Part shown: positions 1 to 13,300 of the stretch, piece after piece
Layout: each line of letters begins with the position of its first letter
How positions within the stretch are numbered: the stretch's first letter is position 1
IMG/VR virus record: IMGVR_UViG_3300022198_002526
Location: 1 to 28,593 of that record
Direction: 5' to 3' (one strand)
DNA length: 28,593 bases
DNA from: a virus
Position numbers and translations under genes: made by a program
Notes under the pieces: model-generated
Told to the model about the DNA's origin: nothing
The model's database searches: none
Seen by the model: only the letters and a program-made list of their open reading frames with translations

Positions 1-151
1 TAGTTGGTTGAGCACCAGTGAATACGGTTTTACTAATAGAGATACCAGCAGACGCATTGATTTTTGCATTGGTAATCGCACCATTATCAATCTTTGCTGA
101 AGTGATTGTTTCGTCTGTGATACTTCCTGTTTTTAATTTACTGATTGCCAT
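1..151 (-). CDS. Tail fibre protein, N-terminal part only (cut by window edge)
   Basis: The first 50 codons of a minus-strand gene run off the left edge. It starts MAISKLKTGSITDETITSAK and continues with a second ITNAKI copy and a SAGISISK stretch. The same style of N-terminus (ITDSAITTAKI, ITNAKIASDAAI, then a SKL or SKT motif) opens the 1038- and 1024-residue fibres in this window, so this is probably another fibre of that group; that is inference from 50 residues. The ATG overlaps the stop of the preceding paralogue as TAATG, which implies translational coupling. The C-terminal part, which would carry the receptor-binding domain, is outside the window, so length and specificity cannot be judged. 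Confidence 0.75.
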   Translation of the reverse strand, partial: MAISKLKTGSITDETITSAKIDNGAITNAKINASAGISISKTVFTGAQPT

Positions 152-795
152 TATGAAACTCCATATAATTTGATTGTGCCGGCATCTATATTTCCTGAAT
201 CAAACTTAAACTGAATAGCATTGATTGCTGATGTGCTATTTAAATATCCTGCTGAATAACAATCAACAACATAATCTCCAGCATCTACTCTCATACTTCT
301 AGTCATAAAATGTTTTACATAAGTTGTAGAACTAGGATTATATATTTTTAAAATACCACTTGTTTGTTGGTCATTATCATTACCAACATCAGGATTTAAA
401 GGTATAAAAGATGTTGATTGTGCTAAATCCATAGAAGTTGTATATGAAACCTGTCCTCCAACACCACCCTCAGATTGACTAGCACCAAAAAAAGTTGAAG
501 TTGTTGTCACACCATAAGAACTTCCACTATTTGTGCTGCCTTGAAACTGAAAATCAGCACCGTCAGTTGCTGGATGAATAGTATTCCAAACAAACCAATA
601 TTCATCATAAGTTGAATCTATATTAGAAGTAAATGATATCGTAGAATCACCTGAAGCTGTAGCAGTCGTCAATAATTTCAAACTCACACCAGTAATTGAT
701 GTAATATTGTTTAACGAAGCATTATTGATAGCACTTGAACCTAATACACCATTTGATCCAATGTTATTTGTAAATGTTCTTGTAATTGTTCCCAT
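151..795 (-). CDS. Tandem tail-tip/adhesin-like paralogue 1 (class A core)
   Basis: This 214-residue protein is the last translated of six tandem paralogues. It has four conserved blocks: an N-terminal MGTITRTFTNNIG segment, an STISFTSNIDSTYDEYWF block near residues 50-70, NPSSTTYVKHF near 155, and a C-terminal TSAINAIQF...GNIDAGTIKLYG block. The stretches between are variable. Predicted composition is beta-rich with many Ser, Thr, Gly and Asn, and there is no signal peptide or membrane segment. It belongs to class A (YWFVWN paired with GILKIYN) and carries the FQGS strand type. It is the most diverged copy: the usual TASASAS is TATASGDS and DGGSNYN is NSGSSYG. A virion tail-tip or receptor-binding role is inferred from its place in the fibre block. 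Both its start and its stop overlap neighbours as TAATG. Confidence 0.85.
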   Translation of the reverse strand: MGTITRTFTNNIGSNGVLGSSAINNASLNNITSITGVSLKLLTTATASGDSTISFTSNIDSTYDEYWFVWNTIHPATDGADFQFQGSTNSGSSYGVTTTSTFFGASQSEGGVGGQVSYTTSMDLAQSTSFIPLNPDVGNDNDQQTSGILKIYNPSSTTYVKHFMTRSMRVDAGDYVVDCYSAGYLNSTSAINAIQFKFDSGNIDAGTIKLYGVS

Positions 796-1457
796 TATGT
801 TTTCTTTACTCCAAATAATTTGATTGTGCCAGCGTCTATGTTACCTGATGCCATTTTAAAATCAATAGCATCGATTGCTGAAGTTGTATTAAAATATCCT
901 CCATAATAAGTATTGATAGAAATATCATTTAAGTTTGTTCTATTTGAAGTTCCCATAAAATGTTTTACATAAGTGGTGCTACTAGGATTAAATAACCATA
1001 ATTCACCACTACCATTTTCATCACTAGCATTACCTAAATCATTAAATAATATTTGATATGATGTTGATTGTGCCAAATCTTCAGAAGGACCATAACCAAG
1101 AGAAGTAACACTGTCACTCTCACTGTGATATGCTTGAAAAAAACTTGATGTCTTAGTCACATTATAATTACTTCCACCATCAGTGCTTCCGTTAAAATGA
1201 AAAGCAGTTCCATCAGTAGCTGGATGAATATTAATAAACTTAAAACAATAAGCATCATATGTTGAATCCAATCCTGATGTGAAACTTAAAGAAGCACTAG
1301 CAGATGCTGTCTGTTCACTAATCAAAAAAAAGTCTCCTACATCACAACCTGATGGTAGAGAAGTCACAGCACTTACACTGGTATTGGAGATACCCGATGC
1401 TGATACAACACCGCCGGTTGTAATATTATTTGCTAATGCTCTTGTTATTGTTCCCAT
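795..1457 (-). CDS. Tandem tail-tip/adhesin-like paralogue 2 (class B core)
   Basis: This 220-residue member of the six-gene array has the full set of blocks: QTASASASLSFTSGLDSTYD, then YCFKFINIHPATDG, FNGSTDGGSNYNVTKT, GELWLFNPSSTTYVKHF and GNIDAGTIKLFG. It is class B (YCFKFINIH with ELWLF) with the FNGS strand type. A 90-bp stretch of this gene (1221-1310) matches the class B copy at 2763-3425 at 86 of 90 positions, much closer than the genes are overall. Start and stop both overlap neighbours as TAATG. No enzymatic motif is visible. Function is inferred from the fibre context: a small beta-structured tip or decoration protein of the tail. Confidence 0.85.
   Translation of the reverse strand: MGTITRALANNITTGGVVSASGISNTSVSAVTSLPSGCDVGDFFLISEQTASASASLSFTSGLDSTYDAYCFKFINIHPATDGTAFHFNGSTDGGSNYNVTKTSSFFQAYHSESDSVTSLGYGPSEDLAQSTSYQILFNDLGNASDENGSGELWLFNPSSTTYVKHFMGTSNRTNLNDISINTYYGGYFNTTSAIDAIDFKMASGNIDAGTIKLFGVKKT
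1221..1310. repeat. 90-bp near-identical patch, copy in paralogue 2
   Basis: It differs from 3189-3278 at four single positions out of 90 by hand count. It encodes block II and the class B strand. Confidence 0.8.
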
Positions 1458-2107
1458 TATTTTAATCCGTATAAGTATATTGTTCCGGCATCAATATTTC
1501 CGAAAACACATTTAAAATCGATAGCATTAATTGCTGATGTGGTATTGAAATATCCTGCATTAAAAACATTTCTTGAAGAATTAGGGTGGTCACCATTACC
1601 AATAGAAATAAAATGTTTTACATAAGTTGTAGATGAAGGATTAAACAATTTCAATATACCACAACAAGAAGCATCATTATTATTTGAAGTTCCACTGCTA
1701 ATATTTGAATATCCTGTACCTTGTGCAATATCATTACCTGTACTATAATCTAGTGATGCTGAAGCATCATCTTCTCTGTGTTGTGCTTGAAAAAAAGTAG
1801 TAGTTTTTGTGACATTATAATTACTACCACCATCTATGCTTCCGTTAAAAGAAAATGGAGTATCATTATTAGCCGGGTGAACATCATTCCATATAAACCA
1901 ATACTCATCATAAGTAGAATCAATACCTGATGTGAAACTAATAGAAGCACTAGCACTAGCAGTCTGAGAGGAAATCAACACTAAATCACTCTTAGCAGCT
2001 GTCGGTAAATCAGTGATACCTGATACGGAAGTGTTATTGATAGCACCAGACAGAAAAGTGCCGTCTGTGTTGAGTAAGTTAGCAAATCCTCTTGTATTAG
2101 CACCCAT
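1457..2107 (-). CDS. Tandem tail-tip/adhesin-like paralogue 3 (class A core)
   Basis: This 216-residue array member is class A (YWFIWNDVHP with GILKLFN) and carries the FNGS strand type (FNGSIDGGSNYNVTKT). It differs from its siblings by an adjacent Cys-Cys pair (DASCCG) just before the GILKLFN strand and by its own loop near residue 170 (NGDHPNSSRN). Unlike most of the array it is not directly coupled to its upstream neighbour: eight bases separate it from the stop of paralogue 4. In that junction lies AATAAATA (2113-2120), one base off the T4 late box, five bases before the ATG. That is the same spacing as the exact late boxes ahead of gp25 and the cysteine-rich gene. The adhesin role is inferred. 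Confidence 0.85.
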   Translation of the reverse strand: MGANTRGFANLLNTDGTFLSGAINNTSVSGITDLPTAAKSDLVLISSQTASASASISFTSGIDSTYDEYWFIWNDVHPANNDTPFSFNGSIDGGSNYNVTKTTTFFQAQHREDDASASLDYSTGNDIAQGTGYSNISSGTSNNNDASCCGILKLFNPSSTTYVKHFISIGNGDHPNSSRNVFNAGYFNTTSAINAIDFKCVFGNIDAGTIYLYGLK

Positions 2108-2112
2108 AGTTC

Positions 2113-2120
2113 TATTTATT
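2113..2120 (-). promoter_or_regulatory. Possible degenerate late-promoter box (AATAAATA)
   Basis: One mismatch to the T4 late box TATAAATA on the minus strand, five bases upstream of the ATG of paralogue 3. It coincides with one of the few uncoupled junctions of the array. It overlaps the stop codon of paralogue 4 (GAAATAAATAG), and in AT-rich DNA such a match can arise by chance. Confidence 0.25.
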
Positions 2121-2763
2121 TCACTCCAAACATTTGTATTGTGCCGGCATCTATGTTTCCTGTATCAAATCTAAAAATAACACCATTAATAGCTGAAGTA
2201 GTATTACAATATCCAGCAACAAGATTATGCCAACTTCTAGCACTAGCAAATACACTGTTTGTTTCAGAAATAAAATGTTTTACATAAGTTGTAGAACTTG
2301 GATTGTATAATTTTACAATACCAGATACAGATTCATCGTTTCCTGTATAAACATTTTGACATATTTCTTGGTCTGCTGTTGATTGTGCTAAATCATAACC
2401 AGTTTGATAATCTAGTTGAGCAATTGTATCATTTTCAGCGTGCTGTGCTACAAAACTTGTAGTCGTTTTGGTGACATTCCAATTACTTCCACCATCAGTA
2501 GAAAAATTAATACCTAGACCACCTGTATTTACTGAAGGGTGACAATTATTTAATACAAACCAATACTCATCATAAGTCGAATCAATACCAGACGTAAAAC
2601 TTATTGAACTACTAGCAGATGCTGTAGATTCACTAATCAATATCAAAGAACCGCCTAATGATAAATCAGTAATGTTTCCTAAAGATGTATTATTGACAGC
2701 ACTGGAAGTAATAACTCCACTGGTTGTAAAACTGTTAGCGATGTTTCTTGTTGCCTGTCCCAT
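2116..2763 (-). CDS. Tandem tail-tip/adhesin-like paralogue 4 (class A core)
   Basis: This 215-residue array member is class A (YWFVLNNCHP with GIVKLYN) and has the INFS strand type (GINFSTDGGSNWNVTKT). The INFS strand is otherwise seen only in paralogue 6, which is class B, so the two halves of the protein have different closest relatives within the array. Its variable loop near residue 175 (SVFASARSWHNLV) is unlike any sibling's. N-terminus MGQATRNIANSFTTSG follows the shared pattern. The ATG overlaps the stop of paralogue 5 (TAATG). The adhesin or tip role is inferred from position. Confidence 0.85.
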   Translation of the reverse strand: MGQATRNIANSFTTSGVITSSAVNNTSLGNITDLSLGGSLILISESTASASSSISFTSGIDSTYDEYWFVLNNCHPSVNTGGLGINFSTDGGSNWNVTKTTTSFVAQHAENDTIAQLDYQTGYDLAQSTADQEICQNVYTGNDESVSGIVKLYNPSSTTYVKHFISETNSVFASARSWHNLVAGYCNTTSAINGVIFRFDTGNIDAGTIQMFGVK

Positions 2764-3425
2764 TAACTTGTTGATACTCCGAATAATTTGATAGTGCCAG
2801 CGTCTATGTTACCTGAAGTAAATTTAAAATCAACAGCATTGATTGCTGATGTGGTATTGAAATAACCAGCCGCATACACATCTGTTGCTCTATCAGCACT
2901 ATGTGCAACACTTATTCTACTCATAAAATGTTTAACATATGTAGTAGAACTAGGATTATATAACCACAATTCACCACTGGTATTTTGGTCATTATCAGCA
3001 CCATCTTCTTCACTAATTGTTTGATAGTTTGTGCCTTGTGCTTGGTCTTGTCCAGCTCTATAAACTAATTGTGTGGCCGAATCATCTTCATGGTGTTTTG
3101 CTATAAAAACAGTTGTTGTCATTGTTGTATTGTAATTAGAACCACCATCAGTTGAACCTTGAAATTGTAAAGTAACATTATCTGTTCCTGGATGAATATT
3201 AATAAACTTAAAACAATAAGCATCATAAGTTGAATCTAAACCTGATGTAAAACTTAAAGAAGCACTAGCAGATGCTGTTTGTGTACTGAGTAAAGTCATT
3301 TTACCAGCATTAGCACCAGAAGGCAACGCTGTAATACCACTTAAACTGGCATTGTTGATACCTGCTGCCTTTAACTTTCCTGTTGTGTCAAAGTTATTGG
3401 CAAGTGATGTAATTCGTGTTCCCAT
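2763..3425 (-). CDS. Tandem tail-tip/adhesin-like paralogue 5 (class B core)
   Basis: This 220-residue array member is class B (YCFKFINIHP with GELWLYN) and has the FQGS strand type (FQGSTDGGSNYNTTMT). Its DNA at 3189-3278 is nearly identical to paralogue 2 at 1221-1310, differing at 4 of 90 positions. The FQGS strand links it instead to paralogue 1, a class A protein. Start and stop are both TAATG overlaps. The protein lacks signal peptide, membrane segment or catalytic motif. The inferred role is a beta-structured tail-tip protein. Confidence 0.85.
   Translation of the reverse strand: MGTRITSLANNFDTTGKLKAAGINNASLSGITALPSGANAGKMTLLSTQTASASASLSFTSGLDSTYDAYCFKFINIHPGTDNVTLQFQGSTDGGSNYNTTMTTTVFIAKHHEDDSATQLVYRAGQDQAQGTNYQTISEEDGADNDQNTSGELWLYNPSSTTYVKHFMSRISVAHSADRATDVYAAGYFNTTSAINAVDFKFTSGNIDAGTIKLFGVSTS
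3189..3278. repeat. 90-bp near-identical patch, copy in paralogue 5
   Basis: Partner of 1221-1310. The two genes sit about 2 kb apart with two class A paralogues between them. Confidence 0.8.
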
Positions 3426-4093
3426 TATGCTATTCCGTATAGTGCTATTGTTCCGTCATCAATGTTGCCTGATGACATTTGAAATCTAACAGCATTAATT
3501 GCTGATGTGGTGTTTCCATATCCTGCTGTAAAAATATGTTGATGATAGGGCGCATTTCCACTTGTTAAAATACTATGTGTTAATTCAGACACAAAATGTT
3601 TTACATAAGTGGTAGATGAGGGGTTGAATAACCATAATTCTAAATTTGTATTTAAATCATTTTCATCACCTGTTAATCCTCTGCCTAATTGGTGGTCGCC
3701 TGTACCTTGTGCTAAATCACCAACTGTATCATAAATAAGACCATTAAATGTATCTGCTTCATCGTGGTATGCTCTAAAATATGTTGTAGTCTTAGTGACA
3801 TTATAATTACTGCCACCGTCAGTAGAAAAATTTATTCCAAAAGTTATATCATCAGCAGAACAATGAATATTAATAAACTTAAAACAATAAGTTTTGTATG
3901 TGGAATCAATACCAGATGTAAATGAAATAGAAGAACTAGCTGATGCTGTTTGTGATGAAATCAGTTTCATCTTGCCGTCAACGGCAGTTGGTAAACTTGT
4001 AACGGAGTTTAGTGAGGCATTATTGAAGGCACTAGATGAGAATACTCCACTGGCGCCAACATTATTGGCTGCTGTTCTAATAATACTTCCCAT
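3425..4093 (-). CDS. Tandem tail-tip/adhesin-like paralogue 6, first of the array (class B core)
   Basis: This 222-residue protein is the first transcribed of the six. It is class B (YCFKFINIHC with LELWLFN) and carries the INFS strand type. Its block II reads STYKTYCF where others have STYDEY or STYDAY, and its C-terminus ends GNIDDGTIALYGIA. It has the longest variable segment before the final block (LTHSILTSGNAPYHQHIF, with a local His/Tyr/Gln cluster). It is preceded by a strong Shine-Dalgarno GGAGG seven bases or less from the ATG, in contrast to its coupled downstream siblings. This suggests it is the main ribosome-loading point for the array. Function is inferred from the fibre context. 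Confidence 0.85.
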   Translation of the reverse strand: MGSIIRTAANNVGASGVFSSSAFNNASLNSVTSLPTAVDGKMKLISSQTASASSSISFTSGIDSTYKTYCFKFINIHCSADDITFGINFSTDGGSNYNVTKTTTYFRAYHDEADTFNGLIYDTVGDLAQGTGDHQLGRGLTGDENDLNTNLELWLFNPSSTTYVKHFVSELTHSILTSGNAPYHQHIFTAGYGNTTSAINAVRFQMSSGNIDDGTIALYGIA

Positions 4094-4108: not shown

Positions 4109-5050
4109 TTAGGTTAATCTTAAATATCTGTAAGAAATTTCAGCAGACGATGCCGGTGCTGTAACAAATGTTAATGTAGTTCCTGAGATTGAATAGTCGT
4201 CTGTTGGAACTAGTGTTACACCATTGACAGTTACGATTACATCTTCGACTGTTCTTCCAGAATCGATTGTGAAACCTGTTGTTGATCCATCACCTGTATC
4301 GGTGCCATTAGTATATGTGGCAGTACCAGATAATGGTAGATAACGATAAGCGATTTCAGCACCAGATGCTGGGGCTGTTGTAAATGTTAATGTTGTACCT
4401 GAAATTGTGTAGTCAGTTGTTGGTACTAAATTAAATCCATTGACATACACTAAAACATCAGCAACACTTCTACCTGAATCGATTGTGAAACCTGTTGTTG
4501 ATCCGTCACCAGTATCAGTTCCTGAAGTGTAAGTTAATGAGGGTACAAGATATGAATAAGCAACTTTTTTGTTTGAACCTGCTGATGCATCGTACACAAC
4601 AAACTCATCACCTGAAGCTGGAGTTGCCGCTAAATCAGTTGACCCATTAATATCTAAATCACTGGCAACATTGGATGCCTGAATCTTTTTGAGTGAACCT
4701 GCTGATGTGTCGTAAACAATAAAGTAATCATTATCTGCTCGTGTTTCTGCAAGTTCAGTTAAACCGGTAATGGCACCAGTACCCAGAGTTGCAACTTCCG
4801 TTGTAACACCAAGATAAACAACAAAGACAGTATCTGAAGAACCGGGAGCAGAGGCAAAGACAATCTGTGTACCACCAGAGGTTAGATTGTATGCAACTTC
4901 CGGTTCTTGGACAACACCTGCAATAGATACAAGTATTGAAGAACTTGAACCGACTGTATAATCAAGTGAAAATGTTGTTGTTGATCCGTCAGGCGAAAGT
5001 GGTTGTTTTTCAAAACTTCCGTATAAAGGTGATCTTCCGATATATGCCAT
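4109..5050 (-). CDS. Repeat-built tail-fibre adaptor/connector protein (313 aa)
   Basis: The protein is assembled from short beta repeats. An N-terminal MAYIGRSPLYGSFEKQ segment leads into a DGSTTTFSLDY...SILVSIAGVVQEP...FASAPGSSD unit (residues about 20-80). Two YD(T/A)SAGS(L/N)KK units follow (about 105-165). The last 140 residues are two copies of a roughly 67-residue unit beginning YTSGTDTGDGSTTGF or YTNGTDTGDGSTTGF and ending YRYLPL or YRYLRL. The 264-residue protein at 12506-13300 has the same plan with one such terminal unit. This architecture is common next to marine-phage fibres; a role as fibre shaft or adaptor is inferred. A late box and an AGAAGGA Shine-Dalgarno precede it, so it may start its own late transcript leading into the six-gene array. 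Confidence 0.8.
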   Translation of the reverse strand: MAYIGRSPLYGSFEKQPLSPDGSTTTFSLDYTVGSSSSILVSIAGVVQEPEVAYNLTSGGTQIVFASAPGSSDTVFVVYLGVTTEVATLGTGAITGLTELAETRADNDYFIVYDTSAGSLKKIQASNVASDLDINGSTDLAATPASGDEFVVYDASAGSNKKVAYSYLVPSLTYTSGTDTGDGSTTGFTIDSGRSVADVLVYVNGFNLVPTTDYTISGTTLTFTTAPASGAEIAYRYLPLSGTATYTNGTDTGDGSTTGFTIDSGRTVEDVIVTVNGVTLVPTDDYSISGTTLTFVTAPASSAEISYRYLRLT

Positions 5051-5082: not shown

Positions 5083-8000
5083 TTATCTCGCTGTTCCTTC
5101 GATAGTTGTAGCACCTGTACCCGATTTAAAGGGGGCTTCAGCAAACGCCATGTAGATGTATGTGCCACCCGATGCGTTAGTATCATTAAAATTTGATCTT
5201 ATTTTAAATCCATTTGATAAGTAATCGTGGTCTATATCTTCTGCTTCTACATTTGTTGCATTTGCATAAACATAATTATCAGTTGGATTTATATATCCTG
5301 CTCTAGCTGAATCATGTAATACCCATGCTTGAATAGCATTTGTTCTTTTAATTAAAGTAAAAGCAGGTCTAAACCCTGTATAGATGAATGCTCCGTCTGT
5401 ACTTCCGTTCCCTGTATAGCTACCGAACTTGCTATATCCTTCTATTTCTGCAAAACAGTAGGCGACCATATTACCACCACTACCATTAACACCATCTCTC
5501 GCACCTACATAAAAAACATTACTTGTTGGTGATGTGTTTTGCCAAACTGTTGTATCTACATCTCCTACACTAGTAGAATTTAAATAAAGTGTATGTCCTG
5601 CTCCTTTATGAACTGAATATGTGTACCAACTCCAACCATCACCATTTCGTCTTTTAACAATATAAAGTTTAGGTACAGCACCTAACCCATGTCCAACAGT
5701 ACCTGTGCTACCATTACCACTATAAGTGACTATAGAAAATCCTGCAGTCGTATTCGCTTGAACTGTTGAGGTAATAGTTCCGTCTGTGTTAGATGATGTA
5801 CTCCCTGCGTTTGCTTTCCAAGACCAACCTACATTTGTATATCCTGTTCCATTGATACCTACATTATCACCTAAAGTAAATCCGTCACTATCAAATGAAG
5901 TCAACATTGTAGTAAATTCACTTTCAGCATCTGTTGCATTACTTGCTAATTGTTTATTAACACCTCTACTTGAATCATTTAATCTGTGAGATGCAGTATT
6001 AGTTCTACTTTTTAACCAAACAAAATCTGGTTGAAATCCAACACCTGTTATAGATTGTGTACTACTATTACCATTCCATAAAACAGTATTAAAATACTCA
6101 GTAGGATCAGCAATAGTAACATTCGGTAAGTTGTTTGTACACAGAGCAAGGTAACCTGTTGGTGGTTCATACTCAAAGTTTCCATATCCGTTTTCATCAC
6201 TGTTGCCAGATGAGATTGAGAATGAGGGATTGCCGAAATTAAATCCTGCAGTTGATGGTGTTCCTGATGATTCAAATGCTGAAATTCTAAAATCTCTTTT
6301 ACGCCCACTTATTGAAATTCCAGTTGCTTGAGCAGTTAAACCTGTATCAATATTTCCATTTTTAGTAAAATAGACTTCACCATCATCTAAATTAATTGCT
6401 ACTGCTAAAATATCACCAGTGGTCATAGCACCTGCATTACTGTTAGCAGTTCCACTTGTACTCGTTTCACCAGTGGAAAAAATTATATGGCATTGATTAG
6501 TACCTGGAGTAGTATCATTGTGGTCGGCATCTGTAAGAGCAAATACCTTAAATTGACCACCTTGACTTATATCTTTAACTTCAAAATACCATTTTCCACT
6601 AGTTAAACCAAAAGTAGAAAAACAATGTTTATCACTTCCACTAGATACAATTTGAAGATTACCTTCGCTTAATGTTCCACCCATAGCATTTGATAAAGGA
6701 TTCAAAGTACAAAAGTTATTAGTCGGTGTATCACTTGTCTGATCCGTGGCAGCTAGATTGCTTGGTGTGAAATCGTTATTGTTTCCTGATGAATCATTTC
6801 CTAAATCAGCACTATTTGAAAAGTCTAAGTAGTATCCATCTGTTCCATAAGTGCCTGTATATTTTTTTGGTACCCAAGCACCTGTTGTTGAATCTGTTTC
6901 ACCAAAGTCAGAAGCAGTTAACGCTTGTCCGTCAACAACATGAAGTTCAGCAATATATCCATCTGCATAAGCAGTAAGGTTTACAGAATCAGAATAATTT
7001 GCTACATCACTTCTTACACCTATTCTATTAGTTGCCCATTTAACATCGGTGTTTTGTCCAATCATAGAAGTATAAGTTGTTTGTTGAACACCGTTTATCC
7101 AGAGTTTTCCTCTGTCATTTGTTGTTGCTTGAGTAGTGTCTGTTTGTGCTACAATATGATACCAAGCACTTACATCTCGTTGGAGTCCATCTGCTCTAAC
7201 TTGAAAACTTCCACCAAAACCACCAAAATAAAATTCACCATTATTCCAAAAACTAATATAATTTCCACTTCCCCCTTTACTTCCGTCACCTGTGTCATTT
7301 GTATTTTGGTCACTGGCCCAAATAGTTTGTCTTGCGTTTAAAGTAGTTCTTTTTACCCATACAGAAACAGTAAAAGTTCTTTTGTTTGTTGTTCCTGTTG
7401 AACGAGTTAAATAAGCACTATCATTATCATTAAATCTAAGGGAATTATCAATCACAAAGTTAGTCACGGTAATACTAAAAGAACGACTAGCCGTTTGTGA
7501 TTCAGCATCTGTTGCTGTAATCGTAAATGTTGAAGTTGTGTCAGCGGCAACAGACGGTGCTGTACCCGTAATAGCACCAGTTGATGAATTTAAAGATAAA
7601 CCTGTTGGTAAACTACCAGATGTCACGGAATAGGAAATAGCACTATTCGAAGAAGCACTTACAGAGAAACTGGCACTCTCTCCTTCACCGACACTTCCTA
7701 ATGAACCAGAAGATGTTGAAAAACTTACGGTTTCTGAGTATAAAACGGTGCCTATTGAAGTAGCAGCCAATCCGTCTGGATTACTTACACGAATTTTATA
7801 ATCAGTTCCCTCTGTTAATGTAGAAGCAGGAATTGTTACACGTAATTGAGTAGCACTCACAAAAGTCACTGTTGGTAAATTAATAACAGCGTTGGTTGTA
7901 CTATGAATAAAATCTACTCGAGCACCATTAGTAAAATCAGTACCATTGATATCGACTGTTTCCGTATCATAGACAGCAGGTTGACCGTTTGTAATACTTA

Positions 8001-8157
8001 AAGAACTGATGGTCGGAAAGGTAATTGTTAATTTAGAATTAGCAATAGCGGCATCAGATGCTATCTTAGCGTTAGTGATTGCTTCGTTTTGAATATTTGT
8101 AGAGTTGACACCACCTGGTCCGAATGTTTCAGTGGTTGCCTTTGTCAAAGAACCCAT
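5083..8157 (-). CDS. Large multidomain tail fibre with IPT, Ig, LamG-like and SPRY-like regions (1024 aa)
   Basis: Likely domain order: N-terminal fibre segment with ITNAKI and IANSKL (1-45), IPT/TIG-like region (about 47-140), putative-Ig region with GSLPTGLSLNSSTGAITG (about 145-232), LamG/concanavalin-like region from SLRFNDNDSAYL to YYLDF (about 240-450), SPRY-like region with GKWYFEVK and VYFTKNG (about 500-650), then a C-terminal region with GFSIVTYSGNGSTGTVGHGLG (about 690-1010) ending GGTYIYMAFAEAPF. Domains are assigned by motif recognition. LamG and SPRY folds usually bind glycans or proteins, so host-surface recognition is the inferred role. It is a full-length paralogue of the next upstream gene, with near-identical DNA patches. 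GAGG lies seven bases before the ATG, inside the four-base-spaced end of that gene. Confidence 0.85.
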   Translation of the reverse strand: MGSLTKATTETFGPGGVNSTNIQNEAITNAKIASDAAIANSKLTITFPTISSLSITNGQPAVYDTETVDINGTDFTNGARVDFIHSTTNAVINLPTVTFVSATQLRVTIPASTLTEGTDYKIRVSNPDGLAATSIGTVLYSETVSFSTSSGSLGSVGEGESASFSVSASSNSAISYSVTSGSLPTGLSLNSSTGAITGTAPSVAADTTSTFTITATDAESQTASRSFSITVTNFVIDNSLRFNDNDSAYLTRSTGTTNKRTFTVSVWVKRTTLNARQTIWASDQNTNDTGDGSKGGSGNYISFWNNGEFYFGGFGGSFQVRADGLQRDVSAWYHIVAQTDTTQATTNDRGKLWINGVQQTTYTSMIGQNTDVKWATNRIGVRSDVANYSDSVNLTAYADGYIAELHVVDGQALTASDFGETDSTTGAWVPKKYTGTYGTDGYYLDFSNSADLGNDSSGNNNDFTPSNLAATDQTSDTPTNNFCTLNPLSNAMGGTLSEGNLQIVSSGSDKHCFSTFGLTSGKWYFEVKDISQGGQFKVFALTDADHNDTTPGTNQCHIIFSTGETSTSGTANSNAGAMTTGDILAVAINLDDGEVYFTKNGNIDTGLTAQATGISISGRKRDFRISAFESSGTPSTAGFNFGNPSFSISSGNSDENGYGNFEYEPPTGYLALCTNNLPNVTIADPTEYFNTVLWNGNSSTQSITGVGFQPDFVWLKSRTNTASHRLNDSSRGVNKQLASNATDAESEFTTMLTSFDSDGFTLGDNVGINGTGYTNVGWSWKANAGSTSSNTDGTITSTVQANTTAGFSIVTYSGNGSTGTVGHGLGAVPKLYIVKRRNGDGWSWYTYSVHKGAGHTLYLNSTSVGDVDTTVWQNTSPTSNVFYVGARDGVNGSGGNMVAYCFAEIEGYSKFGSYTGNGSTDGAFIYTGFRPAFTLIKRTNAIQAWVLHDSARAGYINPTDNYVYANATNVEAEDIDHDYLSNGFKIRSNFNDTNASGGTYIYMAFAEAPFKSGTGATTIEGTAR
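5721..5820. repeat. 100-bp near-identical patch shared by the two giant fibre genes, copy 1
   Basis: It matches 8793-8892 at 96 of 100 positions by hand count, with the first 40 bases identical. The four differences are single substitutions. The genes around it are clearly more diverged, which suggests gene conversion or very strong constraint. Confidence 0.8.
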
Positions 8158-8160
8158 GAT

Positions 8161-11100
8161 TTACCTCGCTGTTGCTTCGTTAGTAAGTATTCCTCCGAAG
8201 GGTGCTTCGGCAAATGCCATGTAGATATAGGTGCCACCAGATGCGTTATGTCTTGCGGCAATTTCTCTTACTTTAAAACCATTAGATAATAAATCAAAAA
8301 AATTACCTGCGGCATCTTCAGTTTCAGATACATTTGCTTTTAACATATCATTATTCACATTATATCCATCTCTTTTATTATCAAACATTGTCCAGTTTTC
8401 ACCTGCACTATCCGTTCTTTTAACCATTAACCAAGCAGGTTTAAAGCCTGTATAGACGAATGTTCCATTTGTACTTCCATTCCCTGTGTACTTACCGAAC
8501 TTGCTATATCCTTCTATTTCTGCGAAACAGTAGGCGACATAAGTAGTTCCATTTGCATTTGTTCCAAGTCTTGTTCCAACACTAAATACAGAACTAGTTG
8601 GTACTGTACTATTCCAAGACGTTGAATTTGTTGATTTTGCATCAGTTGACTGAAGTTCAATTGATTCATCACCTGTTAAAGCATTATGCCAAGCAATCCA
8701 AGCATATCCTGCAGTGTTTCTTGCTTTTGTTACTAAAAATGAAGGTGCTTTACCTAGTCCATGACCAATAGTAGCATTACTTCCTGTTCCTGTATAAGTG
8801 ACTATAGAAAATCCTGCAGTCGTATTCGCTTGAACTGTTGAGGTGATACTTCCATCTGTGTTAGATGATGTACTCCCTACGTTTGCTTTCCAGTTCCAAG
8901 CGACATAAGTTTGTGAATTTTCATTTGTAGAACCACTTGTGCCAAGAGTAAATCCATCAGCATCAAATGATTTATGATTTGTTGTATCAGTCGATTCTGC
9001 ATTGGTATTATCTGGTTCTATTCGTTTAGATGCACCTCGACTTGAATCAAATATTCTATGTGAAGATGTACTAGACCTTTCTTTAATCCATAAAAAGTCT
9101 GGTTGAAATCCTACTCCTGTTACAGTTCTATCATCATTACCGTCACCTGTATATAAAACAGTATTAAAATAATCACTTGAATCTTTAATCGTAGGTTCTG
9201 GCAAATTGTTTGTACACAGAGCAAGGTAACCGGATGGTGGGGCATACTCAAAGTTTCCATATCCGTTATCATCTGAATTACCGCTTGATATTGTAAAAGA
9301 TGGATTGCCAAAATTCATGGATATAGTGTTATTTGCAGAACCATCATTTCTTACCATTAAAAATGGTCTGTAATGTATGCCAGTTGTAATACTAGAATAA
9401 GCGGGGTTAGTACCATTTGTAGGGTTAGAAGAATTACCATCTGCACCATAATATGTGCCGTTTTTATGAAAATAAATTTTTTGATTATCCAAATCAAGAG
9501 CAACTCCAACTATATCACCACTCGCTATTCCCCATTGACTAACATTACTTCCATAAGTGCCTGTTGTATTTAAATATCCGGCGGAATTTGTATTTGAATG
9601 AAACCAATAAGCATTAGTCATATTACTAATAGGGTCTCCAGCAGTACCTTTTCCATCTACTACAACTGTCCATGTTTCTGGGTTTCCCACAAATCCTATA
9701 TCATGTCTTGGGTTAGAATCTGTACTTGTTAATTTTGCTTCATAATACCATTTACCAGTTTGAACACCCATACTTGCAGTTGTTCCGTCCCAATTACTTG
9801 TTCTATTATGTGTAAAATTTAAATTGCCTTCACTAATTGTTAAATTAGCAGCAGGAATCATTGTAGCAAAGTTATTCTGTGGTGTATCTGTTACTTGGTC
9901 AATAGCAGCTAAATTGTTTGCGGTGAAGTCATTTGTGTTTCCACTTTCATCATCTCCTAAGTTTCCACTGTCAGCAAAGTCTAAGTAGAATCCGTTGGTG
10001 CCGTAAGTACCAGAATATGTTTTTGGTTTCCAACGACCATTGGATCCTGTAGTACCAAAAGATGAAGGTGTCAATGCTTGTCCGTCAATGAAATGAACCT
10101 CTGCCATGTAGCCGTCAAATGGTTGGTCAATACCCCAAGTATTTGCTGATACTTGATATGTTTGACCACTAACACCGAAAGCAGTATCATAATCTTGTGT
10201 AGGATATGTATTTCCTTGTAAGGATGTTTCTAACACACCATTTGTATAAATCTTTACTCTATCAGAATCAGTTGCCTGAGTTGTATCCACTGACACCAAT
10301 ATATGGTACCAAGCAGAAACATCTCTATATAATCTATTTGTATTAACAGTATATGTGTTGGCGTTAAATCTTACATCTAAACTATCATCATTATTAAATC
10401 TTACAGCATCAAAACTAGATTGTGGAGAATTAGTAAATATATATTGAAAACTACCGAGAACACTTCTTTTTACCCAAGTTGAAAAAGTAAATATTCTTCT
10501 ACTTGTACCAGTTGCCATAGTTTTATTTAAATAAGGATTATCATTATCATTAAATCTCAATGATTGAAATATCACAATATCTGTGACAGTAATATTAAAC
10601 TCTCTATCAGCAAATTGACTTTCAGCATCGGTGGCACGAACTGTAAATGTAGAAGTGGTATCAGCAGCAACACTACTTGGTGTTCCTGTGATTTCACCGT
10701 TTGATGTATTTAAACTTAAACCTGTTGGTAAACTTCCTGATTGAATCGCATAGGTGATAGCACTATTGGAAGTTGCTGATAATGTAATGGTCGAAATGGC
10801 AACACCCTCATCAAAAGTTCCTAAAGAACCAGCAGAGGTTGACCATGAAACTGCTTGACTGACTGTTAACAATGCTGTTGCTGAGATTCCAGCAAAACCA
10901 TCACTTCTTGTTACACGAATTTTATAAGTACCCGCACTTAGTGATGCGGTTACTCTTAATTGAGTAGCACTGACATAAGTAACTGTGGTCGCATTGGTTG
11001 AAGCATTGGTTGAACTATTTAATAATTCAACAGTCGAAGGATTGGAAAAGTTTGTACCGATAATATCAAAGTATAATGATGTGTCACTTGGTGGAATCGC

Positions 11101-11277
11101 ACCTTGACTATTCTGAATAGAGATAGAAGAAATAGTCGGTAGTGAAAGACTGAGTTTTGATTGAGCAATATTTGCTGAGGCACTAATGTCAGCGTTTACA
11201 ATTGTACCATCTTCAATCTTTGCTGTTGTAATAGCACTATCTGTGATTGCACCTGATGTGACTTTTGTTAGCGGCAT
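8161..11277 (-). CDS. Large multidomain tail fibre, paralogue of the 1024-aa fibre (1038 aa)
   Basis: It has the same order of regions as its neighbour: ITDSAITTAKI and IAQSKL N-terminus (1-45), IPT-like (about 47-140), Ig-like with GSLPTGLSLNTSNGEITG (about 145-232), LamG-like from SLRFNDNDNPYL (about 240-455), SPRY-like with GKWYYEAK and IYFHKNG (about 505-665), then the GFSIVTYTGTGSNATIGHGLG region (about 700-1020) ending GGTYIYMAFAEAPF. The two proteins differ most in the LamG and SPRY loops, which is where ligand contact would be expected. Three shared patches are 96 to 98 percent identical at the DNA level by hand count or clearly near-identical. The Shine-Dalgarno AGAAGGA is well placed. 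It is likely a receptor-binding fibre; why two are kept is unknown. Confidence 0.85.
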   Translation of the reverse strand: MPLTKVTSGAITDSAITTAKIEDGTIVNADISASANIAQSKLSLSLPTISSISIQNSQGAIPPSDTSLYFDIIGTNFSNPSTVELLNSSTNASTNATTVTYVSATQLRVTASLSAGTYKIRVTRSDGFAGISATALLTVSQAVSWSTSAGSLGTFDEGVAISTITLSATSNSAITYAIQSGSLPTGLSLNTSNGEITGTPSSVAADTTSTFTVRATDAESQFADREFNITVTDIVIFQSLRFNDNDNPYLNKTMATGTSRRIFTFSTWVKRSVLGSFQYIFTNSPQSSFDAVRFNNDDSLDVRFNANTYTVNTNRLYRDVSAWYHILVSVDTTQATDSDRVKIYTNGVLETSLQGNTYPTQDYDTAFGVSGQTYQVSANTWGIDQPFDGYMAEVHFIDGQALTPSSFGTTGSNGRWKPKTYSGTYGTNGFYLDFADSGNLGDDESGNTNDFTANNLAAIDQVTDTPQNNFATMIPAANLTISEGNLNFTHNRTSNWDGTTASMGVQTGKWYYEAKLTSTDSNPRHDIGFVGNPETWTVVVDGKGTAGDPISNMTNAYWFHSNTNSAGYLNTTGTYGSNVSQWGIASGDIVGVALDLDNQKIYFHKNGTYYGADGNSSNPTNGTNPAYSSITTGIHYRPFLMVRNDGSANNTISMNFGNPSFTISSGNSDDNGYGNFEYAPPSGYLALCTNNLPEPTIKDSSDYFNTVLYTGDGNDDRTVTGVGFQPDFLWIKERSSTSSHRIFDSSRGASKRIEPDNTNAESTDTTNHKSFDADGFTLGTSGSTNENSQTYVAWNWKANVGSTSSNTDGSITSTVQANTTAGFSIVTYTGTGSNATIGHGLGKAPSFLVTKARNTAGYAWIAWHNALTGDESIELQSTDAKSTNSTSWNSTVPTSSVFSVGTRLGTNANGTTYVAYCFAEIEGYSKFGKYTGNGSTNGTFVYTGFKPAWLMVKRTDSAGENWTMFDNKRDGYNVNNDMLKANVSETEDAAGNFFDLLSNGFKVREIAARHNASGGTYIYMAFAEAPFGGILTNEATAR
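8793..8892. repeat. 100-bp near-identical patch shared by the two giant fibre genes, copy 2
   Basis: Partner of 5721-5820. A second shared patch, 5421-5466 and 8493-8538, differs at one of 46 positions. Confidence 0.8.
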
Positions 11278-11292
11278 TTAAATCCTTCTATA

Positions 11293-11580
11293 TTATGGCT
11301 TTGTCGGCCAAGTAATTGCGTCTATGTCATCTGTGGTTGAAACACCGTCTGTGATATCTCTTAATGCCTGACGATATGTTGTCATATCAGCAGTAAGAGT
11401 TTGATCAGAAAGTGCCAAATAGTCTGTTGCTGCTAAAAGACGATCTCTTTTTGATCTGACATCAGCGATTGCTCTGTCAAATGCACCTGCAGCCCAAGCA
11501 GCTTCTTCAGCATCTCTTGCGGCTTCTTCTTCAGCAGTTAGTGCTATTCTTTCACCGTTAACTAATTTAGTTCTTGCCAT
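11293..11580 (-). CDS. Phage_tail_APC-type tail assembly chaperone-like protein (95 aa)
   Basis: This small protein has an acidic, Ala-rich helical N-terminal half (TAEEEAARDAEEAAWAAGAF, about 15-34). The region RDRLLAATDYLALSDQTL (about 46-63) and TYRQALRDI follow, ending in TWPTKP. The R-x-x-LL-x-x-(S/T)D...YRQALRDI pattern is that of the Phage_tail_APC family, small proteins encoded beside tail-fibre genes and thought to help fibre or tail assembly. The family assignment is by recognised motif; the chaperone role is the family's annotation and not shown here. It sits directly ahead of the two giant fibres, which may be its clients. AGAGGAG lies eight bases before the ATG, giving strong initiation. 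Confidence 0.75.
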   Translation of the reverse strand: MARTKLVNGERIALTAEEEAARDAEEAAWAAGAFDRAIADVRSKRDRLLAATDYLALSDQTLTADMTTYRQALRDITDGVSTTDDIDAITWPTKP

Positions 11581-12505: not shown

Positions 12506-13300
12506 TTATATCGGTAAGTACCTAAAATCTATTTGAGCACCAGATGCCGGTGCTGTTGTAAATGTTAAAGTAGTAGATGATATTGTATAGTCTGTTGTTG
12601 GTGTTAAAATAATACCATTGACAATCACTAAAATATCGTTTACACTTCTACCACTATTTATTGTGAAACCTGTTGTTGATCCATCACCTGTATCGGTGCC
12701 AGATGTATATGTAAATGTTGTTGCTGGTGCAAAATTTGATTTTGTCATTTTTCTAATTGCACTAGCAGACGTATCATAGATGAGAACCAAATCATCATTT
12801 GCTACAGTTGTTTCAGCAGTTTGTCCTGAAATGTCTAAGTTAGCAGTTAAATTTGTATTTGTAACTTTTTTAATTGTCGAAGCAGAATTATCATACACTG
12901 ATAATAAGTCAGCACCTTCTAATGATGTTAATGCAGTTGCACCAGAGATGATATTGTTTGAATCGTTGGATAGTTTGGCGTATGTGATTGTTCCGTTAGC
13001 GGGACCTGCCATCGTTGTTGCTTCAAATGGTGTGATAACATAAATCGAAGCAGAACTTCCAGGTGCGGATGTAAAAGTAATTCTTTTGAGATCACCTGAA
13101 CCATCATTACCAACTGTAAAGGCATAGGAAGAACCTGGTTCTTGTCGAACATTGTCGATATAAACCATCAGTGAGTTTTCACCACCTGCAGGTATGATAT
13201 TTGCTAAATCAAATGCGGTTGTTGAACCGTCACCTGTAAATCTATCTATCTTCGCAGCTGCCGAAAACTTTGTTTCGGGTTGCTTTCCTATATAAGCCAT
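12506..13300 (-). CDS. Repeat-built tail-fibre adaptor/connector protein (264 aa)
   Basis: A shorter version of the 313-residue adaptor. It opens MAYIGKQPETKFSAAAKIDR, then a DGSTTAFDLANI...SLMVYIDNVRQEPGSSYAF...TSAPGSSASI unit (about 24-92), two SVYDNSASTIKK / LIYDTSASAIRK units (about 125-190), and one C-terminal TYTSGTDTGDGSTTGF unit (about 197-264) ending FRYLPI. The terminal unit is the same as the two terminal units of the 313-residue protein, and all three share the DNA encoding GDGSTTGFTI with few changes. A shaft or attachment role between baseplate and fibres is inferred. AGAGGA at the end of the preceding gene is its ribosome binding site. Confidence 0.8.
   Translation of the reverse strand: MAYIGKQPETKFSAAAKIDRFTGDGSTTAFDLANIIPAGGENSLMVYIDNVRQEPGSSYAFTVGNDGSGDLKRITFTSAPGSSASIYVITPFEATTMAGPANGTITYAKLSNDSNNIISGATALTSLEGADLLSVYDNSASTIKKVTNTNLTANLDISGQTAETTVANDDLVLIYDTSASAIRKMTKSNFAPATTFTYTSGTDTGDGSTTGFTINSGRSVNDILVIVNGIILTPTTDYTISSTTLTFTTAPASGAQIDFRYLPI

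Follow-up and report, generated by a model that had tools for sequence, protein, structure and literature searches.

Tandem tail-tip-like paralogues of marine phages come in threes and sixes, as might be expected of hetero-trimeric receptor-binding tips

Marine phages encode the small tail-tip-like proteins of PHROG 14820 in tandem arrays in which three or six copies are the rule and three is the unit. We consider it fairly probable that every three consecutive genes specify one receptor-binding tip, a hetero-trimer with one chain from each gene, and that the window, by which we mean the whole stretch of virus DNA analysed (28,593 nucleotides, IMG/VR record IMGVR_UViG_3300022198_002526), encodes two such tips, ABC and DEF (Table 1). 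An earlier note on this DNA had left the choice between a hetero-oligomeric tip, a set of alternative adhesins and a decoration layer; the first fits best, given the multiples of three, the matched tags and the specific ends with shuffled loops. The single long C-terminus of most triads, the nearly tagless chains of three siphovirus-like contigs and the precedent of the mycobacteriophage Mysterious also count in its favour.

Six complete, collinear paralogous ORFs of 214–222 aa were called at positions 151–4093; all six lie on the minus strand, which corrects the earlier note. Its description of six intact paralogues with shared conserved blocks and mostly coupled genes agrees with our data. 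The blocks are seen in the alignment, where A–F are 48–53% identical to the first sequence and the mean column identity is 66%, and four of the five junctions are one-base overlaps of the TAATG type, with 8 bases between C and D. Used as a query, D matches the other five paralogues of its own record with E values of 1.6e-57 or better, which excludes chance resemblance. The three proteins tested against PHROGs, A, D and F, all match phrog_14820 (1e-67 to 1e-69, residues 22–222); B, C and E align with them end to end and belong to the same family, membership being taken as a profile match over the domain. PHROG 14820 is annotated as function unknown, and a Pfam search of the six proteins gave no match above cut-offs. 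The intact, coupled reading frames suggest that a single infection yields all six proteins. Since the record, a virus fragment of 28.6 kb, ends just past F, six copies are a minimum for this phage.

Table 1. Features of the window discussed in the text.
Feature	Position	Strand	Basis
Gene A, triad 1 position 1	3425..4093	-	222 aa ORF; phrog_14820 1.9e-67; tag same in L161, L163
Gene B, triad 1 position 2	2763..3425	-	220 aa ORF; extended C-terminus ..LFGVSTS
Gene C, triad 1 position 3	2116..2763	-	215 aa ORF; alignment
Gene D, triad 2 position 1	1457..2107	-	216 aa ORF; PHROG match; AlphaFold2 model pLDDT 91.8
Gene E, triad 2 position 2	795..1457	-	220 aa ORF; extended C-terminus ..LFGVKKT; AlphaFold2 model pLDDT 88.5
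Gene F, triad 2 position 3	151..795	-	214 aa ORF; PHROG match
N-terminal tag of A, 48 aa	3950..4093	-	tag alignment and comparison with sister loci
N-terminal tag of B, 49 aa	3279..3425	-	tag alignment and comparison with sister loci
N-terminal tag of C, 46 aa	2626..2763	-	tag alignment and comparison with sister loci
N-terminal tag of D, 48 aa	1964..2107	-	tag alignment and comparison with sister loci
N-terminal tag of E, 49 aa	1311..1457	-	tag alignment and comparison with sister loci
N-terminal tag of F, 43 aa	667..795	-	tag alignment and comparison with sister loci
Upstream fibre protein MAYIGRSP.., T7-tail-fibre-N and CBM_X2-like repeats	4109..5050	-	PHROG/Pfam matches
Tail-fibre-assembly-like protein (phrog_4912)	11293..11580	-	PHROG match; position in relatives
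Start of next gene MAISKLKTGSITDETIT.., fibre-type N-terminus	1..151	-	starts at base 151, cut by record end

To count copies, about 310 loci were taken from IMG/VR together with four from bacterial genome contigs, and a profile was built. With duplicates, arrays cut at contig edges and a chimeric MAG contig excluded, 182 unique closed arrays were left (IMG/VR and cultured pelagiphages); 158 of them hold three copies and 21 hold six, figures to be read with the shared descent of the arrays in mind, which makes them non-independent samples, and with most loci being metagenomic contigs. The view of the earlier note that six copies are unusual thus has to be restated, three or six being normal for this family; the threefold pattern was absent from the note. 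Among 15 uncut whole records, three copies were found in ten, six in four and nine in one (distant matches below 90 bits left out).

The exceptions among the closed arrays are L196 with two copies, L039 with four and L054 with five, which break the threes and speak against our reading. L039 and L054 resemble single crossovers between two triad kinds within the conserved body, and these could be real or made by assembly. L180 was counted as six with one frameshifted member, and L199 as three with a weak member (143 bits). These two loci, as well as the chimeric MAG contig L320, were among the arrays initially scored as one, two, four or five copies, most of which proved to be contig-edge cuts. 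Distant relatives of this domain, which often sit in longer proteins with other N-termini, served as a control and formed 25 single, 11 double and 0 triple clusters. Only one distant member each is present in Lederberg EXVC029P and in a Manatee Spring record, which also weighs against our reading; a scan using the Lederberg member as query gave two loci only. Two bacterial entries deserve mention: in L320 (4007–6540), a Roseovarius MAG contig is joined to beta and gamma genes of a phage, whereas the Campylobacteraceae MAG contig L321 (5917–7792) is itself phage DNA carrying an ISNG triad.

The tags are of several kinds (MGxITR.., MALNFANNNSL.., MSINVCNDRSM.., MALSKVNFNS.., MAFISNGTT.., MSTYNAIKY.. 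and others), and the three tags of a triad are normally of one kind and length, yet position-specific. The standard deviation of tag length inside triads is 1.59 residues versus 5.95 in shuffled data, and 0 of 2000 shuffles gave a value as low. Typing of tags by regular expressions is crude, and single-linkage clustering of aligned tags merges most kinds, so that the rule of one kind per triad rests on the length statistics and on inspection. In the inspected cases, arrays with two tag kinds read XXXYYY (L074, L109, L136, L187, L306); L070 has its two triads more than 1 kb apart, and the hybrid array L277, in which two tag kinds are joined, still has three genes. Short "MTLIKTLT" tags were rejected as an artefact of overlooked GTG starts.

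Exactly one longer C-terminus is present in 173 of 199 triads, in 159 of these at position 2; in the window there is likewise one per triad, on B in ABC and on E in DEF. The siphovirus-like contigs L197, L199 and L233 have one tagged chain, and the other two begin almost at the domain. Such near-tagless chains plausibly depend on a partner to reach the virion.

Chain class was examined by a nearest-neighbour test, in which each chain was compared with chains of other loci with bodies less than 75% identical. The neighbour has the same position at a frequency of about 0.8–1.0 when the tag, profile columns 21–65 or the last 15 columns (191–205) are used, the first 15 columns of SKV, outside the aligned tag, being the exception. 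Over most of columns 71–185 the agreement is at or near chance (0.33), with columns 131–155 slightly above it (0.4–0.6), and we conclude that both ends are chain-specific while the middle is a common recombining pool. The loops of NNN chains have the same identity of 0.45 within the triad, with the same class elsewhere and with another class elsewhere, and the same equality holds for SKV and MG; entropy is highest at columns 156–170 and 121–130.

The same division is seen at the DNA level between sister phages, where most tags are 98–100% identical and the middles mostly 51–67%. Compared with L163, the tags of A–D and F of the window are 98–100% identical and the middles 51–63%; compared with L161, genes A, B and D show this pattern and C keeps a similar middle. 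Backbone stretches that the window has in common with these relatives are about 70–86% identical, and the assembly-like gene reaches up to 94%; conservation of the tags thus exceeds that of the backbone, which would fit a role as recombination anchors.

Class profiles of the podovirus chains, applied to the base columns, read alpha-beta-gamma in 95 of 95 NNN triads (a partly circular figure, because NNN trained the profile) and in 31 of 33 SKV triads, beta-alpha-gamma in five of eight ISNG triads and gamma-beta-alpha in six of ten STY triads. The order of the genes thus differs by tag kind, yet one of each class is often kept; that ISNG and STY show this only in part is a point against our reading. 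Transfer of the podovirus classes to the MG-type triads of the window was tried and rejected, as the profiles do not map. With MG-triad profiles, D-E-F read 1-2-3 weakly and A-B-C are ambiguous. The MG triads may have had a separate origin, or their class signal may have been lost; their chains fit no podovirus class, which leaves a common ancestry of the classes unproven and again weakens the case.

Position-specific tags and a domain base that is chain-specific at both ends are also what one would see in three (or six) separate homotrimeric adhesins with private docking sites, comparable to the branched tailspikes seen in some myoviruses, three being the number of docks. As a rule, tail fibres and spikes are homotrimeric, and homotrimers that must avoid mixing would also yield chain-specific ends. 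Nevertheless, we regard this explanation as unlikely, because it accounts neither for the addition of whole triads (3, 6, 9) nor for the tag kind and length common to each triad, the usual single longer C-terminus and the nearly tagless chains of L197, L199 and L233.

Simple inheritance would assign no functional meaning to the number three: an ancestral triplication would have been passed on and shuffled as one unit. The NNN and SKV kinds do share base chain classes (nearest-neighbour agreement up to 0.86), so at least these two descend from one triad. But the several tag kinds, permuted orders and freely recombining middle would easily have given arrays of two, four or five copies, and only 3 of 182 are of this sort, which makes the explanation quite improbable.

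Genes A–F stand amid tail-fibre and baseplate genes. The phrog_4912 gene is directly 3' of the array in relatives of the window and of the triads in pelagipodoviruses, and is displaced in the window. DNA similar to the upstream fibre gene region also precedes the array in L018, L019, L046, L161 and L162, and the fibre protein is a possible carrier of the tips. The gp6-like baseplate protein of the window has its nearest phage record in Pelagibacter phage HTVC008M (55%), and other baseplate-wedge-like genes are also found on the minus strand of the window; on this basis, the phage is T4-like and probably has a SAR11-type host, the host being assigned only through relatives. In a tblastn of D against HTVC008M, no match was reported.

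The AlphaFold2 models of D and E have short helices in the less certain tag, followed by a sandwich of 11 to 12 strands. For both models, the structures that match best are concanavalin-A-like, namely galectins and GH32 C-terminal domains, at about 10% identity, with Foldseek E values no better than 1.9e-3 and listed Z scores of 6.4–8.9 (best 7.7 for D and 8.9 for E), in or near the background; sugar binding is putative. The models thus predict a beta-sandwich for D and E, whose membership of the concanavalin-A-like family is likely but unproven. The earlier note had reckoned with an unrelated intracellular fold as an argument against an adhesin; the fold predicted instead is lectin-like. At E 1e-3 or better, 104 viral models match, including domains of longer tail-fibre proteins. 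A search of PDB sequences with the family profile gave zero matches, and the listed fold matches include no relation to C1q, gp37 or T4 gp9-12. By residue numbering, the chain-specific columns would correspond to strands 1–3 and the last strand of the models. A decoration or glycan-binding layer on the head or tail would suit the predicted lectin-like sandwich, but is highly improbable, as the genes adjoin tail-fibre genes and lie directly 5' of the tail-fibre-assembly-like gene in podoviruses and window relatives, and the hypervariable, exchanged loops suit host recognition.

Among cultured phages, the Pelagibacter podoviruses HTVC010P, HTVC019P and HTVC034P carry the same PHROG 14820 (48–54% identity to D) in exactly three consecutive copies past the tail-fibre region, followed by a tail-fibre-assembly-like gene; the genes are annotated as hypothetical, and their N-termini are position-specific and conserved between these phages. 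They differ from the window in being podoviruses with one triad, shorter tags and chain classes that do not match. In the open-access texts we searched, no account of tandem tail-fibre genes or of paralogous trios in pelagiphages was found.

A precedent for the hetero-trimer comes from the mycobacteriophage Mysterious, in which, according to the passages of a cryo-EM preprint used here, the three consecutive baseplate genes gp35, gp36 and gp37 yield a heterotrimer that docks via a composite N-terminal groove; gp35, modelled to residue 205, has an N-terminal arm, a central beta-sandwich and a C-terminal extension (PMC13252515). Three consecutive genes for proteins of about 200 aa with an N-terminal arm and a beta-sandwich are also what the arrays, tags and models indicate here. 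The likeness is one of gene layout and architecture, without a demonstrated sequence relation; tandem paralogues, sets of 3/6/9 and exchanged loops are not described in those passages of the preprint. In the virophage DSLV2, three consecutive genes encode tripartite tail proteins, which are reported to assemble 1:1:1 into a heterotrimer with affinity for bacterial LPS (PMC12724248), but with a T4 gp37-tip-like fold and in a different virus class.

In a hetero-trimeric tip, the N-terminal tags of about 45 aa of the three chains would pair with one another and attach the tip to the fibre or baseplate, chain identity would be fixed by the tag together with the first and last strands of the sandwich, and the middle of the domain with its hypervariable loops would face the host surface. 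Middles are exchanged by recombination between chains and between phages, so that the fixed slots of one virion could display three, six or nine different binding surfaces. The wider proposition that a widespread class of marine phages builds combinatorial hetero-trimeric tips in this manner, with fixed ends forming slots, middles shuffled between slots and phages, and slots added only as whole triads (3, 6, 9), may equally well prove right or wrong. It gives a direct prediction for the cultured HTVC010P, HTVC019P and HTVC034P, and the threefold copy lock with specific ends and swapped middles would mark hetero-trimeric assembly at the genome level and could be looked for in other fibre families. 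The most abundant viruses of the ocean include the SAR11 phages, and to our knowledge little has been established about how they recognise and track the host surface.

Some further features of these genomes should be noted. In HTVC010P (L007 6785–7608, KC465898), two adjoining CDS resemble one broken C1q-like gene. On the minus strand of the window, positions 5083–8157 and 8161–11277 encode tandem fibre proteins of about 1030 aa with He_PIG, LamG, SPRY-like and DUF7483 domains, and paralogous MAYIG-type proteins with repeated GDGSTTGFTI modules (4109–5050 and 12506–13300) lie on both sides of this fibre region.
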